A stretch of DNA of 8,504 nt from a bacterium (GCA_021158465.1 JAGGUN010000003.1:1-8504), one strand, 5' to 3'; counted from the stretch's first letter, positions 2,303-8,504 are shown. The notes: a model not told the origin generated them from the sequence alone. Numbers and translations: made by a program.

Positions 2303-2338
2303 ATGGTTTCTTCTTTTTTAACAAGGAGGTTGAGATGA
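2303..2338 (+). CDS. Possible 11-codon leader ORF coupled to the giant gene
   Basis: An ATG at 2303, preceded by AGGAG at 2294-2298, opens a short frame coding MVSSFLTRRLR and ending in TGA at 2336-2338. The stop overlaps the start of the next gene as ATGA (2335-2338). The ribosome site of the giant gene (AAGGAGG, 2323-2329) lies inside the ORF, partly as two AGG arginine codons. This is the geometry of a translationally coupled leader peptide, but in so short a frame it can arise by chance, and the 4-base spacing is slightly tight. No known leader peptide matches. Confidence 0.25.
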   Translation: MVSSFLTRRLR

Positions 2339-5300
2339 AAAGGTTGGTGTTTTCTCTTGCATTGTTCGTTGTGCTGCTTTTTGTTGGCGGCTTGTATGCG
2401 GAGGTTCTGGTGAACGGTTACATAAACATTCTCCGCTTGAACTCCGACCTTCGTGTGGAGGCTGTTGATACATTTGACTATGAGGCTGACAGTGACCAGA
2501 CATTTGGTGTCTGGGTAGTGCTTTCGAGCTTATCCCCGACAGATTGCAATGATGTAGTGGTGGAACTTAGCGCAGATTACTATACTGTTTCTCCTTCGGT
2601 TGATACGCTCTCTGTTCTTCGTTCGGGGCAGATTGACTCGGTATATTTTAGTGTTGCTGGGCATCCACTCAGAGGTGTCAAGCTGTTTTCCCCTCACAAG
2701 GATTCTCTTTACGCTCACATTATAGGCGGCACCGACGGTGATGGCGACCTCGTTGTGGAGCACATAACGGACAACGACCTCTTGATAAAGATTGAGGCTC
2801 CTGCTCATCTGGTTTTCCAATCCACGGAGTTTGTTGCTGGTGATGTGCCAAACTCTCCCGATGTAACTGAGGGTGAGCGTTTCAGGCTGATGGCGGAGGT
2901 TCGCAACACTGGTGATGATGCAATAGATTCTGTTGCTATCTGCATTCGCAACAGTACCCTTAATCCGGTTCCATCCGTTCTTATTGACACGATGTTTATC
3001 TTAAGGGATTTTGCGGGTGGTTCGGATACAACTCTTTTCTTCCTGATAGAGGCTGCGCCGAATCAGGATGCGACAGGGGCATTGGAGGAGCAGTTCGTTG
3101 TCGATATGTCCTGGGGGGTTGCGAACAACACAGGCACAGCCCCAGATGTGGACTATGTGGACAACACGGAGGATATGAACATTCAGTATCCGCCGGAGTT
3201 TGACCTCTTCGATATGCACACGGATGTTCCATGGTTAAACAAATCTGATACGCTCCGTTTGACATCTATTCTGGGGAATTTAGCCGGTGATTATGCCACA
3301 GCTGATTCTCTTACATCGTACAGCCACTATCTTGAGCTTTATATTCCCTCCACGACAACGGAGATAACGGGTGTTGGTGGTCTTGGTGCCCCGACGACTG
3401 CCTTTCAGGACAGAATAGAGGCGGGCGACTTCGGGCAGTTTGATTTCTCACTTTACAATGAGGGGGCTTCGCATCAGGGGTTGGTGGATGTAAGAGAAAT
3501 AGTTTATTTCCATGACGAGAACTATCCATCGCAGGGAGAGCCTCTTACCTCTCCTGATACGATACTGGCTTTCGGGGTGTTTGGGATAGATACCGAGGAC
3601 CCCAGCACAGAGATAACCAATCTCAATACTGGCTGGATGAACGATGTGAACTGGCCCGATAGTGTATATGGTAAGATATTCGATGCCACGAGCGGTCCTG
3701 ATTCTGTTTATTACGCCGTCGAGAATGATACTGGATGTTTCTGGAATGGTGGAACTGATTGGGTAGTGGATACGGTCTGGTTTGAGGCAGAGCTGTATGA
3801 TGACACCCTGTGGGTGGGAGAGCTGCCCGAGCCCGGCATTGCATACACGATATATGCCTGGGGTGTCGATGTTGCGGGCAACCATGAGGAAACGCCCGAT
3901 ATTGTCAGTATTATATTTGACAACACATCACCTATGGTGGAGGTTATCTATCCTGATGCAGGTATTTATCCTCCCTCCGGCTGGGGAGACACAATCTCTG
4001 TTATCGCCAGCGATGACTCCTCTGGTATCGGTGAGGTGTATGTGGCGATATACGATTCGCTGACTGGCAAATACTGGGATGATTCGACATCGACCTGGGG
4101 TGCGCTTCGCCGCTGGAATCCTGCTACTCATACGATTGGTGACCATTACCTGTATGATTTTGTTCCCGGTGGGGAGACGAGGATTTTCAAGATATATGCT
4201 CTTGCTTATGACCGTGCCCTGAATCACAGTGAGATAGATTCTGTCTGGTGGCTTTACTACGACAGGACTCGTCCTCATTCCGAGGTAACGAATATCGATA
4301 CCACATTCTACAATGCGGCGAGCTGGGTTGCGAACGGTGAGGCAATTGAAGGATGGAGCACCGACAGTCAGTTCACATATGTTGATTCCACCAGGCTTAT
4401 GATTTATAACAGGGATAAACATCTCTGGTGGAACGGGACGGAGTGGGTAGGTGTTGGCTCCTGGGTGCTCGCTGGTGTGAATGTTCTCGAGGATGACACA
4501 TTGTACTGGTCGTATCCGATGCCTCTGGATGATATGCTCGACGGTCAGTATGAGCTTTACACCAGAGCCTACGACCATCTTGGCAACATTGAGGTGCCCG
4601 AGCTTGAGGACACATTCGATCTCGACAGAACAGCACCTGTTATAACCCCTGTATATCCGCTTCCCGAGTCGATTTACAATGCTGCCGAGTGGCTTGACAC
4701 GGTGAAGGTTCATGTCGTGGATACATCTGTCAGTTATGTTGACAGCGTTCTGTTTGCCTTTTACAGCGAAGAGCTTGGAGCTTATTGGAACTGGTCGAGC
4801 TCGGACTGGAGTTCACCCGTTGCGGATTGGAATGTAGCAAATCAGGCGGGAGACTACTACTGGTGGCCTATCACCTGTTTTGCCGATGGAGAGTATGAGC
4901 TCAAGGTCCGTGCTGTCGACGGCAGGGGTAATGATACGACAAGAGTGATTCGCTATTACATAAACAACTATGGCACCTATCTTGTCATAGAGGGACCGGA
5001 GTATGGTTTTGTTGGAGTTCCTTTTGATATGACTATAACAGCCTGCCGCAGCGATGAGAGCATCGATTCGTCTTACTCTTATCCTCTGGAGGTTCTTGCT
5101 AACAAGGACTCATCGCTTGTTGATTTTCCGTCGTCTCCTTTCTATCTCACGCACGGGACGATAACGGTTTCGTTCACCGTTAATGCTCCTATGGTTGGAT
5201 TGAGGATAACCGTTCGGTCGCTCGATGGTCCACCCTTGATGGATGTCTCCGACCCCATATCGATAATCGAGGTGCTTGACCTGCCGGACTTTGTCTATAT

Positions 5301-7092
5301 CTACGATAATCCATCCGACCAAGGGGATACGCTTGTGCTCGTTTCCGACCTCTCGGAGAACGACCCTTATAGTCCTGGTTTTGTTCCCGGCGGTGTCGAG
5401 GTAACGGAGTATATCTTCTACCGTGATGTGGACCTTTCTGCAGATACCCTCTGGGTTCCGATAGATACGATAATGCCCGCTGCTCGTGATTCCATTATGT
5501 TCAAGTTCACCTGTGGCGGCTCGTTCGACACTTACGACTACAGCTACATCATAACTGCCAATGCACCTTCCCGCCTGCTTTCTGCTGAGGATTTTGTCCT
5601 GACATCTGGCAGAATACCTATCGGTTCCTATGCCCCTGAGGACAATATTCCTCCTGATGGTGTAACTGGAATAGATATTGCTCCTTACGGTGCAAACTAC
5701 TGGCAGTTGAGCTGGGATGCTGTAACGGTTGGTGAAGATGGGACACCTGAGATAAACCCGAGTATTAATATCGAATATGAGGTGTATCGTCTGACAGAGC
5801 CTTACGGCGGACTTGGTGATGCAACGCTCATCGGCACGACGGGGCTGACGTCGTTTATCGATGATGATATAGGTGGTGCCGATGTCAGGGGAGATGCGGA
5901 TAACAACTACTTCTACTTTGTTCGAGCAAAGGATACTGGTCCGAACTATGGAGACATTTCTGGCACAGTTGGCGAGTTTGATTTTGCGCTTGGAACGGGT
6001 TTCACCTCGGTTGGCAAGGCGCTTGTTATGCCTTCTCTTGATAGTGCCCATGCCTTCCCGGCGATTACACCGAACTTCGAGGCGGTTTCGAGGTATGTAG
6101 CAGGTTCCGGCTGGGAGCAGTGGGTAACTGGGACGCCCATATTCGATTTCCCCGTTACCGATGGTATGGCGGTCTGGCTTGCCACCTCCGACGATGGTGT
6201 GCTGACGCTTTATGGAACGCCTCCAGGTGCAACGGATATATACTTCGACCTTATCAGAACAACGACATCTTGCTGGAATGCGATCACCGTTCCGCTCCCT
6301 ATAACATATATTGAGGATGCGGAGGACCTTTATACGGATATTCCGAACTGCGATGCGGTTGCAAGATGGGTTCCCGGTGGAGGCTGGGAGCAGTGGGTAG
6401 TTGGAACATCGATATTTAACTTCGATGTATATCGTGGTTATCCGTATATGGTTAGTGTGACGGAAAACGGGACCTGGCCATCCTATTCGCTTCGCAAGCT
6501 GTCAACCGATATTGTCGATGGCAGTGAATATGCCTGGGGACCGAAGCTTGTCTGGACGGAAACAGAAGGGACATCCTTCCGAGCATACATCGTCGGGCGT
6601 GAAGATGAGGTCCTGACGGAGAGCTCGTTCGGTTGTGCGTTGGAGCAGAATATCCTTGCCGTTCAGGTTGGCAACTTCCCGACGCATTGGAAGGTTGGCG
6701 ATATTCTCCATATAGACATCCTTGATGGAGATAGGGTTTTGGCTTCTTATGATTGTGAGCTCGATTACTTGCCTGTGACGAGGCTCGAGAAGCCTGGAAT
6801 TTCTGCTATTCCGAATAGTTTCCGACTCGGCAGTGCCTATCCTAATCCGTTCAATACGGCGACAGCGGTTACATTTGACCTTCCAAAGGAAGAGTTTGTC
6901 ACCATCGATGTGATAAACCTGCTTGGTGAGAATGTGAAGACGCTTGTCAGCGATACGAAGCCTGCCGGTTCTTACACCGCTATCTGGGATGGAACGGACG
7001 AGAGCGGGAATGTGGTATCTGCTGGTATCTACTTTTACAGAATGCAGGCTGGCAGTTTCACATCCGTCGGGAAAATGGTGTTTGTTAAGTAA
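2335..7092 (+). CDS. Giant multidomain secreted/surface protein with Ig-like modules and T9SS sorting domain
   Basis: The 1585-residue product has a signal peptide (residues 1-22, MKRL, hydrophobic core, cleavage near GLYA|EV). It is beta-rich throughout. Residues ~23-155 are an N-terminal region; ~156-290 resemble a CARDB-like segment ('AEVRNTGDDAI'). Four Ig-like modules at ~421-878 are separated by D.T.P-type linkers. Two further beta-rich regions lie at ~879-1100, and an FN3-like domain ('W.LSWDAVT...YEVYRL...YFVRA') at ~1103-1222. A duplicated module sharing GWEQWV lies at ~1223-1383, and a module shared with the next two genes at ~1384-1487. Residues 1496-1585 carry the sorting tail (YPNPFN at 1502-1507, FlgD-like 'WDGTDESGN...AGIYFYRMQAG', end VFVK). 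It is probably exported by Sec plus T9SS and anchored at or released from the cell surface. No protease, glycosidase or other catalytic motif is evident; an adhesive or structural role is an inference. AAGGAGG at 2323-2329 with 5-base spacing fixes the start. Confidence 0.92.
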   Translation: MKRLVFSLALFVVLLFVGGLYAEVLVNGYINILRLNSDLRVEAVDTFDYEADSDQTFGVWVVLSSLSPTDCNDVVVELSADYYTVSPSVDTLSVLRSGQIDSVYFSVAGHPLRGVKLFSPHKDSLYAHIIGGTDGDGDLVVEHITDNDLLIKIEAPAHLVFQSTEFVAGDVPNSPDVTEGERFRLMAEVRNTGDDAIDSVAICIRNSTLNPVPSVLIDTMFILRDFAGGSDTTLFFLIEAAPNQDATGALEEQFVVDMSWGVANNTGTAPDVDYVDNTEDMNIQYPPEFDLFDMHTDVPWLNKSDTLRLTSILGNLAGDYATADSLTSYSHYLELYIPSTTTEITGVGGLGAPTTAFQDRIEAGDFGQFDFSLYNEGASHQGLVDVREIVYFHDENYPSQGEPLTSPDTILAFGVFGIDTEDPSTEITNLNTGWMNDVNWPDSVYGKIFDATSGPDSVYYAVENDTGCFWNGGTDWVVDTVWFEAELYDDTLWVGELPEPGIAYTIYAWGVDVAGNHEETPDIVSIIFDNTSPMVEVIYPDAGIYPPSGWGDTISVIASDDSSGIGEVYVAIYDSLTGKYWDDSTSTWGALRRWNPATHTIGDHYLYDFVPGGETRIFKIYALAYDRALNHSEIDSVWWLYYDRTRPHSEVTNIDTTFYNAASWVANGEAIEGWSTDSQFTYVDSTRLMIYNRDKHLWWNGTEWVGVGSWVLAGVNVLEDDTLYWSYPMPLDDMLDGQYELYTRAYDHLGNIEVPELEDTFDLDRTAPVITPVYPLPESIYNAAEWLDTVKVHVVDTSVSYVDSVLFAFYSEELGAYWNWSSSDWSSPVADWNVANQAGDYYWWPITCFADGEYELKVRAVDGRGNDTTRVIRYYINNYGTYLVIEGPEYGFVGVPFDMTITACRSDESIDSSYSYPLEVLANKDSSLVDFPSSPFYLTHGTITVSFTVNAPMVGLRITVRSLDGPPLMDVSDPISIIEVLDLPDFVYIYDNPSDQGDTLVLVSDLSENDPYSPGFVPGGVEVTEYIFYRDVDLSADTLWVPIDTIMPAARDSIMFKFTCGGSFDTYDYSYIITANAPSRLLSAEDFVLTSGRIPIGSYAPEDNIPPDGVTGIDIAPYGANYWQLSWDAVTVGEDGTPEINPSINIEYEVYRLTEPYGGLGDATLIGTTGLTSFIDDDIGGADVRGDADNNYFYFVRAKDTGPNYGDISGTVGEFDFALGTGFTSVGKALVMPSLDSAHAFPAITPNFEAVSRYVAGSGWEQWVTGTPIFDFPVTDGMAVWLATSDDGVLTLYGTPPGATDIYFDLIRTTTSCWNAITVPLPITYIEDAEDLYTDIPNCDAVARWVPGGGWEQWVVGTSIFNFDVYRGYPYMVSVTENGTWPSYSLRKLSTDIVDGSEYAWGPKLVWTETEGTSFRAYIVGREDEVLTESSFGCALEQNILAVQVGNFPTHWKVGDILHIDILDGDRVLASYDCELDYLPVTRLEKPGISAIPNSFRLGSAYPNPFNTATAVTFDLPKEEFVTIDVINLLGENVKTLVSDTKPAGSYTAIWDGTDESGNVVSAGIYFYRMQAGSFTSVGKMVFVK
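3595..4968 (+). repeat. Four diverged Ig-like repeat modules within the giant protein
   Basis: Modules of about 110-120 residues span approximately 421-531, 532-645, 646-767 and 768-878 of the product. The first three close with DNTSP, DRTRP and DRTAP, and each has a mid-module aromatic motif (CFWNGGTDW, KYWDDSTSTW, LWWNGTEW, AYWNWSSSDW) and a late 'Y.L...A.D..GN' strand. Divergence is high, unlike the fresh repeats at 125-625, so these are old duplications. The pattern resembles Ig-like modules of bacterial surface proteins. Confidence 0.75.
6001..6483 (+). repeat. Duplicated GWEQW module within the giant protein
   Basis: Two copies, residues ~1223-1306 and ~1307-1383, share the order: a 'P' strand segment, 'aVsRyv/aVaRWv', G.GWEQWV.GT.IF.F.V, then an aromatic strand. 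The DNA for GWEQWV is identical over 18 bases at 6109-6126 and 6382-6399, 91 codons apart. The second copy begins 'CWNAITVPL', like the 'WN.ISVPL' modules I recall from large exported proteins of uncultured bacteria. Function is unknown. Confidence 0.75.
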
Positions 7093-7105
7093 ATATGCTA
7101 TTTAA

Positions 7106-7129
7106 GGGGCAGGGGAGCTCCTCTGCCCC
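7106..7129 (+). terminator. Strong GC-rich hairpin, possible attenuator or mRNA processing site
   Basis: The arms GGGGCAGGGGA and TCCTCTGCCCC pair fully, with one G-U wobble (7113 with 7122) and a tiny GC/AGCT loop. The hairpin begins 13 bases after the stop of the giant gene. No U-tract follows (GACAACAACAA), so it is not a classical intrinsic terminator. It could slow transcription, block 3' exonucleases, or lower expression of the downstream genes relative to the giant gene. Confidence 0.5.
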
Positions 7130-7149
7130 GACAACAACAAGGGAGTGTT

Positions 7150-7764
7150 ATGAGAAGAACACTTATCTTGGTAATCTTGCTTTTGATGTTTGCTATGCCG
7201 GTATCGGCACAGATAAGCCACAATGTCACGGGGACGCTCGTCAGAAGCGATGGGGTAACCATTCCCCCTACGGAGTGCATTGTATTTGTTGCCTGGCTGA
7301 ACGATAACCGCTCCGATACGCTTACTCAAGACTCCCCCGGTTGTGGATATTGGGGGGAATATGCCTGCTGGGTTGTCAACACAGGGAATTTTGCCTCTCC
7401 TTGGCATAGCGGCGATATACTTCATATATATTTTTATGACAGTTGTGTGGGTGAAGAGTATAACTTTTCCTGTGTTCTGAACGATGAGCCGACCCAGGAT
7501 GTCGGGCAGGTAACCCTGCCTGTTGAGGAAGAAGGAAGCACCGAGACTATCTTTTCCCTCTATCCGAACCCAGCGGATGGATATGTGTCTCTCACACTGC
7601 CGGAGGATGCTCTCGGCGTTTCGGTCTACAATATAACAGGAAAGAAAATATTATATGTAGAAAACAGAAAATATATCGAGGTGTCAGCTCTTCCTCCCGG
7701 GGTATATTTTGTCAGGGTATCCTCCGGGGGCAGGGACAAGGTAAGGAAGATAATAGTAAAATGA
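7150..7764 (+). CDS. Small exported protein: shared N-terminal module plus T9SS-type tail
   Basis: The 204-residue product has a signal peptide (residues 1-20, cleavage near VSA|Q). Residues ~22-125 form the module shared with the following gene and with residues ~1384-1487 of the giant protein: SHNVTGTLVRSDGVTIPP at 23-40, LTQDSPGCGY around 58-67, and GNF..PWHSGDILHIYFYD at 79-97. Cys43, Cys65 and Cys99 line up with cysteines 45, 67 and 99 of the next protein, so disulfides are possible. Residues ~135-204 are a compact sorting tail (SLYPNPADG at 136-144, 'VYNITGKK', 'PPGVYFVRV', end KIIVK). AAGGGAG at 7139-7145 precedes the ATG. No enzyme motif is visible, and the role is unknown. A stop-to-start gap of 16 bases to the next gene suggests one transcript. 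Confidence 0.85.
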   Translation: MRRTLILVILLLMFAMPVSAQISHNVTGTLVRSDGVTIPPTECIVFVAWLNDNRSDTLTQDSPGCGYWGEYACWVVNTGNFASPWHSGDILHIYFYDSCVGEEYNFSCVLNDEPTQDVGQVTLPVEEEGSTETIFSLYPNPADGYVSLTLPEDALGVSVYNITGKKILYVENRKYIEVSALPPGVYFVRVSSGGRDKVRKIIVK

Positions 7765-7780
7765 AACCAAGGAGGCAGAG

Positions 7781-8504
7781 ATGAAAAGGATGGCTCTGTT
7801 GGTGATACTGGGGCTATTTTTGCTTCAGGGTGCGGTTTTTGCCCAGGGAGTGAGCCACAATGTTATAGGGCAGATTGTCCGCTCCGATGGGATGACCGTT
7901 CCCCCTGATGGCTGCATTCAGTTTCGTGCCAGCATTGTCGGGCGTGATTATGAGGTCTTGACGGAGGCTGACTCCGGCTGCACCTATTCTGGTGGAGTGT
8001 GGGTTGTCAATGTTGGTAACTTCCCATCTGGCTGGCATGAGGGCGATGTTATGCACATATCGTTCATCGATACCTGTGGGCACGAGGTCGGTGAGGATAT
8101 TGGTTCTCTTACATCCGCTCCTTATGACAATTTCGGGCTTACCACACTTACCGCCGCTGTTGGTCCTGTTCTATCCGGTGGTGATGTTTCCCCCGACACA
8201 GGTTATGCCTCCACAGATTTCAGTTACTCGGTTATGTATCAGCATCCTTTCGGGGCGCCGCCCGATTATATTGCGGTGGTGATACTTGACCCGGACACAT
8301 CGTTCGAGATACTTATGACCCGCACCGATACCACTTGCTCATACACAGCAGGCTGCGAATATTCTGCCACTTATACCGGTCTTCGCAAGCATCTAATCCA
8401 CCAGTTCCACTTTGTCTCCTACGACACCAGCGGCAATATCGCAACAGGGGATGTCGGATACCATATCGGACCTGTGGTGCTGAATTCCCTTCCTGTTGTG
8501 ACGA
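7781..8504 (+). CDS. Exported protein, shared module plus beta-sandwich domain (3' end outside window)
   Basis: The frame is open from ATG 7781 to the window end (241 residues seen). AAGGAGG at 7769-7775, 5 bases upstream, supports the start. A signal peptide covers residues 1-22 (MKRMALL, hydrophobic core, VFA|QG). Residues ~25-107 are the shared module: SHNVIGQIVRSDGMTVPP, 'SIVGRDYEVLTE', GNFPSGWHEGDVMHISFID, with Cys45, Cys67 and Cys99. Residues ~128-232 look like an Ig/PKD-like beta-sandwich of the type 'P.LS.G.VSPDTG..STDFSYSV.Y', ending in 'HQFHFVSYDTSGN', with its own Cys186/Cys192 pair. Further domains and a sorting tail are expected beyond the edge but not seen. No catalytic motif is visible; the function is unknown. 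Confidence 0.85.
   Translation, partial: MKRMALLVILGLFLLQGAVFAQGVSHNVIGQIVRSDGMTVPPDGCIQFRASIVGRDYEVLTEADSGCTYSGGVWVVNVGNFPSGWHEGDVMHISFIDTCGHEVGEDIGSLTSAPYDNFGLTTLTAAVGPVLSGGDVSPDTGYASTDFSYSVMYQHPFGAPPDYIAVVILDPDTSFEILMTRTDTTCSYTAGCEYSATYTGLRKHLIHQFHFVSYDTSGNIATGDVGYHIGPVVLNSLPVVT

Follow-up and report, generated by a model that had tools for sequence, protein, structure and literature searches.

The window analysed in this work is one whole contig of 8,504 bases from a bacterial genome (GCA_021158465.1, JAGGUN010000003.1; contig C44 of the genome that we call G000), and it carries three successive genes for exported proteins, here named A, B, and C. Each of the three proteins starts with a signal-peptide-like stretch, and all of them contain a module of ~100 residues, which is the subject of this report. 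In the giant protein A the module is internal, placed between a double domain that we call PAIR and a sorting tail of the type IX secretion system (T9SS); in B and C it stands at the mature N-terminus. A fourth copy occurs at the mature N-terminus of protein D (1,775 amino acids, aa), which is encoded on another contig of the same genome (C20, positions 6662-11989), and a profile search of G000 detected the module in A, B, C, and D only. The near-fixed positions of the module in neighbouring giant-protein genes suggest that it joins the proteins into one surface structure.

Results

The module is an unnamed protein family

Pairwise BLASTP comparison (B-C, E 2e-28, 45% over 102 aa; A-C, E 5e-18, 52% over 50 aa; A-B, E 7e-10) puts it beyond doubt that the three window copies are real and homologous, which bears out the proposal of a first-pass annotation of this DNA that one module is common to three successive exported proteins. 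By the profile boundaries, the start of the A copy and the end of the C copy lie ~60 bp and ~50 bp, respectively, downstream of where they were then placed. Three cysteines had also been described as kept in the two small proteins; the cysteines are indeed present in B and C, but C is not small, being a giant protein cut by the contig end. The closest named record is candidate division Zixibacteria bacterium 4484_93 (94% identity in the B module). Searches against Pfam, NCBIfam (whole proteins), and PDB, by single sequence and by profile, produced no credible match, and a Pfam scan of 39 module copies gave no transthyretin/CarboxypepD_reg-type model at E <= 0.5. The earlier impression that this is no named domain was thus correct, and the module is an unnamed family in the libraries searched. 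Viral contigs searched with A1 contained no relatives.

Only two residues, G7 and G67, are nearly invariant among the 39 copies, and the motifs and one pair of cysteines are maintained at ~30% identity between copies. At alignment columns 22 and 82, 31 of the 39 copies have both cysteines, 8 have neither, and none has just one (p 1.6e-8, a value inflated by the kinship of the copies); such co-variation in the alignment suggests that Cys22 and Cys82 probably form a disulfide bond. The group with both cysteines includes, as far as the alignment shows, all 28 aligned N-terminal copies of the window's class, and the group with neither consists of internal copies (the A slot, with the window A copy among them, and two of genome G060) together with the N-terminal copy of G060. 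A second pair, in columns 26 and 37, is found together in three B copies only (L047, L049, L051).

The module occupies two main contexts

Profiles of the module, PAIR, and the tail were mapped on 41 loci containing 86 module copies. The mature N-terminus is the site of 55 copies, including two (L167 and L170) that the script labelled "other" with the start codon called too far upstream and that are N-terminal by our reading. Another 28 copies follow PAIR directly, 27 of them also standing directly before a T9SS tail; the 28th is the frameshifted A copy of a sister genome. There are three exceptions, i.e., one extra copy upstream of PAIR in each of G060 and G403, and a tandem second copy in G424. 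Because all but three of the 86 copies fall into two contexts, the module is not freely placed, and its earlier description as a mobile building block is not supported in that sense.

In that sister metagenome-assembled genome (NATO01000119.1; L015, ~4537-4540), 49 bp are missing within the gene A module as compared to window positions 6699-6751. The gap causes a frameshift with loss of the remainder of the module and of the sorting tail, and is flanked by a short direct match; it may be a real deletion or an assembly error.

The gene that follows a PAIR-module-tail gene (n = 27) is an N-terminal-module gene in 15 cases, another PAIR-module-tail gene in 6, neither in 5, and unresolved in 1; these adjacency counts are inflated upward for the second phylum, because its loci were chosen for holding several module copies, and the placement rule is less exposed to that choice. 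The PAIR profile was made from the A proteins and one G060 protein, so that only PAIR matches in other loci count as independent; it finds such independent proteins in other genomes with E values of 1e-16 to 1e-31. Six loci (L076, L103, L104, L106, L170, and L077) show a split form, in which a protein ending in PAIR is followed by a gene that starts with a signal peptide and the module. No module was found in the six PAIR proteins, and no tail by the tail profile. A tail is seen in five of the six second proteins, the one in L077 running off the locus. In window gene A, PAIR, module, and tail are fused in one protein. The co-existence of split and fused gene forms often indicates physical association (the Rosetta-stone pattern, which is established reasoning and not proof).

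The gene set recurs in related bacteria

A survey of copy number and neighbours in relatives showed that the same gene arrangement recurs. The module is present in 14 of the 17 genomes of the window's class, in recurring A-B-C(-D) sets, the usual order being A (giant), B (204-241 aa), C (~2,150-2,440 aa), and D (1,650-2,100 aa); across the class B contains little beyond module and tail. The four genes are contiguous in G004, G007, G010, and G011, and D is located elsewhere in G000 and G002. In both G000 and G002, purQ is found upstream of A. In the three module-less genomes (G003, G006, and G012) the A protein of G008 finds, among the matches listed, similarity in the tail region only, so gene A itself seems to be missing. 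Outside the class, the module was rare among the genomes of a broad sample (6 of 369), but it was found in 23 of 82 genomes of the phylum of G060. The A-B-C order was also observed in another phylum, in G424 and G423, with protein lengths of 907, 229, and >1,210 aa at locus L157 and of 899, 226, and 1,497 aa at L159.

Descent of the module copies

A 33-base match between A and C (6589-6621 and 7934-7966) had been taken as a sign of fairly recent exchange. The count of 29 identical bases is exact base for base, but it comes from the best-matching part of an alignment that is otherwise 59% identical. At identical residues of A and C, 14 of 25 codons agree, where codon usage predicts 9.4 (P 0.036); synonymous sites are thus near saturation. 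The corresponding figures are 25 of 46 versus 17.3 for B-C (P 0.012) and 6 of 21 versus 7.9 for A-B. On the tree, the copies cluster for the most part according to slot (7 changes, compared with a shuffled mean of 22.5), and the window A copy falls among the A copies of other families and not with C. Recent A-C exchange is not supported by the synonymous codons or the tree. The window B and C copies are sisters (support 96/81), and the data do not reject a tree in which the C copies all form a single clade (AU p 0.13); from these sequences a local B-C exchange in the window's genus is possible.

Grouping by slot would also be expected if the module were an inert N-terminal beta-sandwich without a binding role that was passed on as giant surface-protein genes duplicated in tandem. 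Similarity between C and D extends over ~1,200 residues, B looks like a gene of this type minus its middle, and long surface proteins often contain beta-sandwich spacers. Because the paralogy of C and D is clear, we consider plain paralogy with a spacer function the strongest rival explanation, though a rather unlikely one: apart from the module and the sorting tail, protein A is unrelated to C and D, yet it has the module beside PAIR; B has hardly anything other than module and tail; the split and fused arrangements are seen again in other genomes; and the motifs and the co-varying cysteines are conserved despite the low identity between copies.

Probable export by the type IX system

The tails of A and B exceed the TIGR04183 cut-off of 23 (29.6 and 52.7 bits, respectively). 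The tail of D passes FlgD_ig (35.1 versus 27) and does not pass Por_Secre_tail (17.6 versus 27), and that of C was read from orthologues and from contig C31. SprA and PorU score above their curated cut-offs in G000 (PorU 608.6 bits, cut-off 420) and in every genome tested. With T9SS genes present, A to D are probably surface proteins tethered at their C-terminal ends. The 2-Mb genome of G000 encodes dozens of proteins with FlgD_ig/T9SS-type tails (97 places), so that T9SS cargo takes up a large share of the genome. Codon adaptation gave no sign of high expression of B (0.594) or A (0.550; median 0.619).

Residue +1 after the predicted cleavage site is Gln in nearly all N-terminal-module proteins (window positions 7210 and 7844; ~6719 in L062), but, by a crude rule, in just a few of the dozen further exported G000 proteins compared. 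A "Q-rule" is called Bacteroidetes-specific in PMC5837995; here Gln at +1 appears to be linked to one protein set outside Bacteroidetes.

An Omp85-family protein with a POTRA domain is encoded after D in families f1, f2, and f4 (L062:11994-13616; also in L046, L047, L051, L053, and L054) and is a possible partner in export or assembly. Together with a module that begins within a few residues of the mature N-terminus, it could point to a role of the N-terminal module in secretion, i.e., in periplasmic chaperoning or late translocation of the giants with the Omp85-family protein as partner. We regard this as very unlikely, given that the A copy is internal and near the C-terminal sorting tail, that no Omp85 gene follows D in G010 (f3), that the known T9SS sorting signal is C-terminal (PMC11285876), and that most tail-bearing proteins of G000 are without the module.

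Cohesin-like domains in C and D (Pfam Cohesin, E 2e-7 in D and E 2e-4 in C of G011) and the giant, T9SS-tailed, non-catalytic proteins resemble the cohesin/dockerin scaffolds with T9SS tails inferred in Cloacimonadota (Ca. Stygibacter, PMC8542988). On that model the cohesins would bind dockerin enzymes and the module would be incidental. It is highly improbable here: unlike in Cloacimonadota, the window's genome has no Dockerin_1 match, nor do G002, G010, and G011, and G004 has one below the cut-off. A cohesin-dockerin scaffold in G000 was set aside on the Dockerin_1 scan.

Predicted fold of the module

The B module was modelled by AF2 from a 4-row alignment. The best model has a mean pLDDT of 89.3 and a pTM of 0.80, the five models spanning pLDDT 49 to 89. 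Its VIA matches include teneurin-2 (Z 9.4, 82 residues, 2.2 A), BcpA (Z 8.2), carboxypeptidase D (Z 8.0), carboxypeptidase N (Z 7.8), and transthyretin (Z ~7), and CBM41 is also listed. The B module is therefore likely, on the strength of this model, to be a transthyretin/CnaB/carboxypeptidase-regulatory-like beta-sandwich; many unrelated beta-sandwiches also reach Z 7-8, so the fold class is likely and the family link is not established. A Foldseek search of PDB returned a mixed list with nothing below E 1e-3 (best E 1.3e-3). The A module model is weaker (pLDDT 69; VIA Z at most 6.5, with no good transthyretin-type match) and shows the same strand order as B. The two models thus do not refute a common fold; B is a confident beta-sandwich, and the fold of A may be the same.

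The predicted fold of B is probably like that of the transthyretin-like/carboxypeptidase-regulatory-like domains of carboxypeptidases D and N and teneurin, which are beta-sandwiches of seven to eight strands, but the module has only 5-10% sequence identity to them and lacks a Pfam match. It is also like that of the CnaB domains of Gram-positive pilins and adhesins (BcpA, SpaA, GBS52; Z 7.2-8.2), which are likewise stacked in surface proteins; unlike CnaB, the module has no conserved Lys across the 39 copies to form an isopeptide bond with Asn/Asp, a probable disulfide instead, and predicted export by T9SS rather than sortase linkage.

A fold of this kind might bind carbohydrate or another extracellular ligand, and the gene cluster would then encode adhesins for a substrate. 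Weak Foldseek matches to starch-binding domains (1cqy, E 0.012; CBM20 8x8k, E 0.07; CBM56 5t7a, E 0.09), the CBM41 entry of VIA, and the conserved aromatics (W in "W.V..GNF" and "W..GD") are in its favour. We find it decidedly unlikely, as the CBM matches are weak and mixed with antibodies, the top VIA matches are non-CBM transthyretin-like domains, and C-slot copies from f3 and f4 do not retain the aromatics.

Features of the window

The coordinates are collected in Table 1. Gene A orthologues are known from three other families of the window's class. Gene C is incomplete because the window is one whole contig ending at 8504 (orthologues, 2,150-2,440 aa). A 376-aa open end on contig C31 (101059-102180, minus strand), with a 40% match to the C-terminal part of a C orthologue, is by this similarity probably the C-terminal piece of the same gene. 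At 50-907, directly upstream of a purS-like gene and purQ, the window encodes an exported protein of 285 aa that combines delta-60/SBBP-like repeats with a sorting tail.

Table 1. Genes and domains of the three exported proteins in the 8,504-base window
Feature	Position	Strand	Description	Evidence
Gene A	2335..7092	+	1,585-aa exported protein: signal peptide, Ig-like repeats, PAIR, module, FlgD_ig/T9SS tail	ORF; tail FlgD_ig E 9e-9, TIGR04183 E 5e-7
PAIR double domain (GWN-like type)	5941..6486	+	immediately 5' of the A module	profile built from A proteins, this one included
Module copy 1 (A)	6544..6795	+	internal, PAIR-module-tail	HMM envelope residues 1404-1487, E 2e-17
FlgD_ig/type IX sorting tail of A	6814..7089	+		
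Gene B	7150..7764	+	204-aa exported protein: signal peptide, module, and T9SS tail only	
B signal peptide (predicted)	7150..7209	+	MRRTLILVILLLMFAMPVSA, followed by Q	read from sequence; crude rule
Module copy 2 (B)	7219..7518	+	mature N-terminus, all conserved Cys	HMM E 4e-36
Por_Secre_tail of B	7558..7758	+		Pfam E 7e-14; TIGR04183 E 3e-14
Gene C, 5' part	7781..8504	+	241 aa before contig end; start of giant exported protein	
C signal peptide (predicted)	7781..7843	+	MKRMALLVILGLFLLQGAVFA, followed by Q	read from sequence
Module copy 3 (C)	7856..8149	+	mature N-terminus of C	HMM E 7e-34

Discussion

We tentatively favour, with a little less than even confidence, the explanation that the module serves assembly or docking in a surface complex exported by T9SS, with PAIR as a possible binding partner. 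A shared assembly role had been suggested in the first-pass annotation and stays the leading explanation, as the gene arrangement recurs in related genomes and the module is nearly always in two contexts. The T9SS tails would tether the subunits to the outer membrane, and an N-terminal module would face outward or could freely contact a neighbour, the module of A lying beside its own tail. B, C, and D would each dock by their free N-terminal module onto the C-terminal end of another subunit, the likeliest docking site being in A, either the PAIR double domain or PAIR together with the module. In view of the two-position rule and the split forms, the simplest reading is that the module would bind PAIR, in cis within A and in trans when it is carried by B, C, or D. 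In a variant that we consider unlikely, PAIR and an N-terminal module would form a docking pair by which a tail-less giant is exported or anchored via a small tail-bearing partner, the partner having been fused into A.

Several observations weigh against the docking explanation. Part of the module sharing is simple inheritance, because C and D are paralogues over ~1,200 residues. In family f4, from which five A genes are known, the A copy has degenerated too far to be recognised securely (hhalign 63%, 48 columns), and the B, C, and D copies are kept. Five of the 27 PAIR-module-tail genes have no adjoining module gene, and the adjacency counts carry the upward bias mentioned above. The co-variation of the cysteines follows slot and is partly phylogenetic. 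We infer the docking from genomic context, and likewise the physical contact, the partner, the disulfide, and the surface location of the module proteins.

The export route is already known, and so probably is the fold. The tails of A, B, C, and D and the presence of SprA and PorU are like those of T9SS type A cargo (Por_Secre_tail/FlgD_ig), but the module and its pairing with PAIR are absent from the described tail and from any described cargo that we found. The FimA/Mfa (type V) fimbriae of Bacteroidales, of the same superphylum, also build transthyretin-like beta-sandwiches into surface structures, according to PMC2954217. Unlike type V fimbrillins, nearly all N-terminal-module proteins have Gln and not a lipidated Cys at the mature N-terminus. 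Type V fimbrillins are also not known to have a T9SS tail, whereas the module proteins carry one. No paper on this gene cluster was found in a literature search that was weak on subscription journals, and the literature on Zixibacteria with T9SS or surface proteins offered nothing useful.

This work defines an unnamed domain family with a simple placement rule, and a cluster of giant type IX cargo genes that is conserved in two or more phylum-level groups of bacteria, all uncultured. Delivery by a docking pair, if true, would mean that T9SS cargo can be delivered by a two-component route. If docking by the module is true, it would show how T9SS-exported proteins are assembled as multi-subunit structures, and whether the sorting tail of a partner can bring cargo to the surface.

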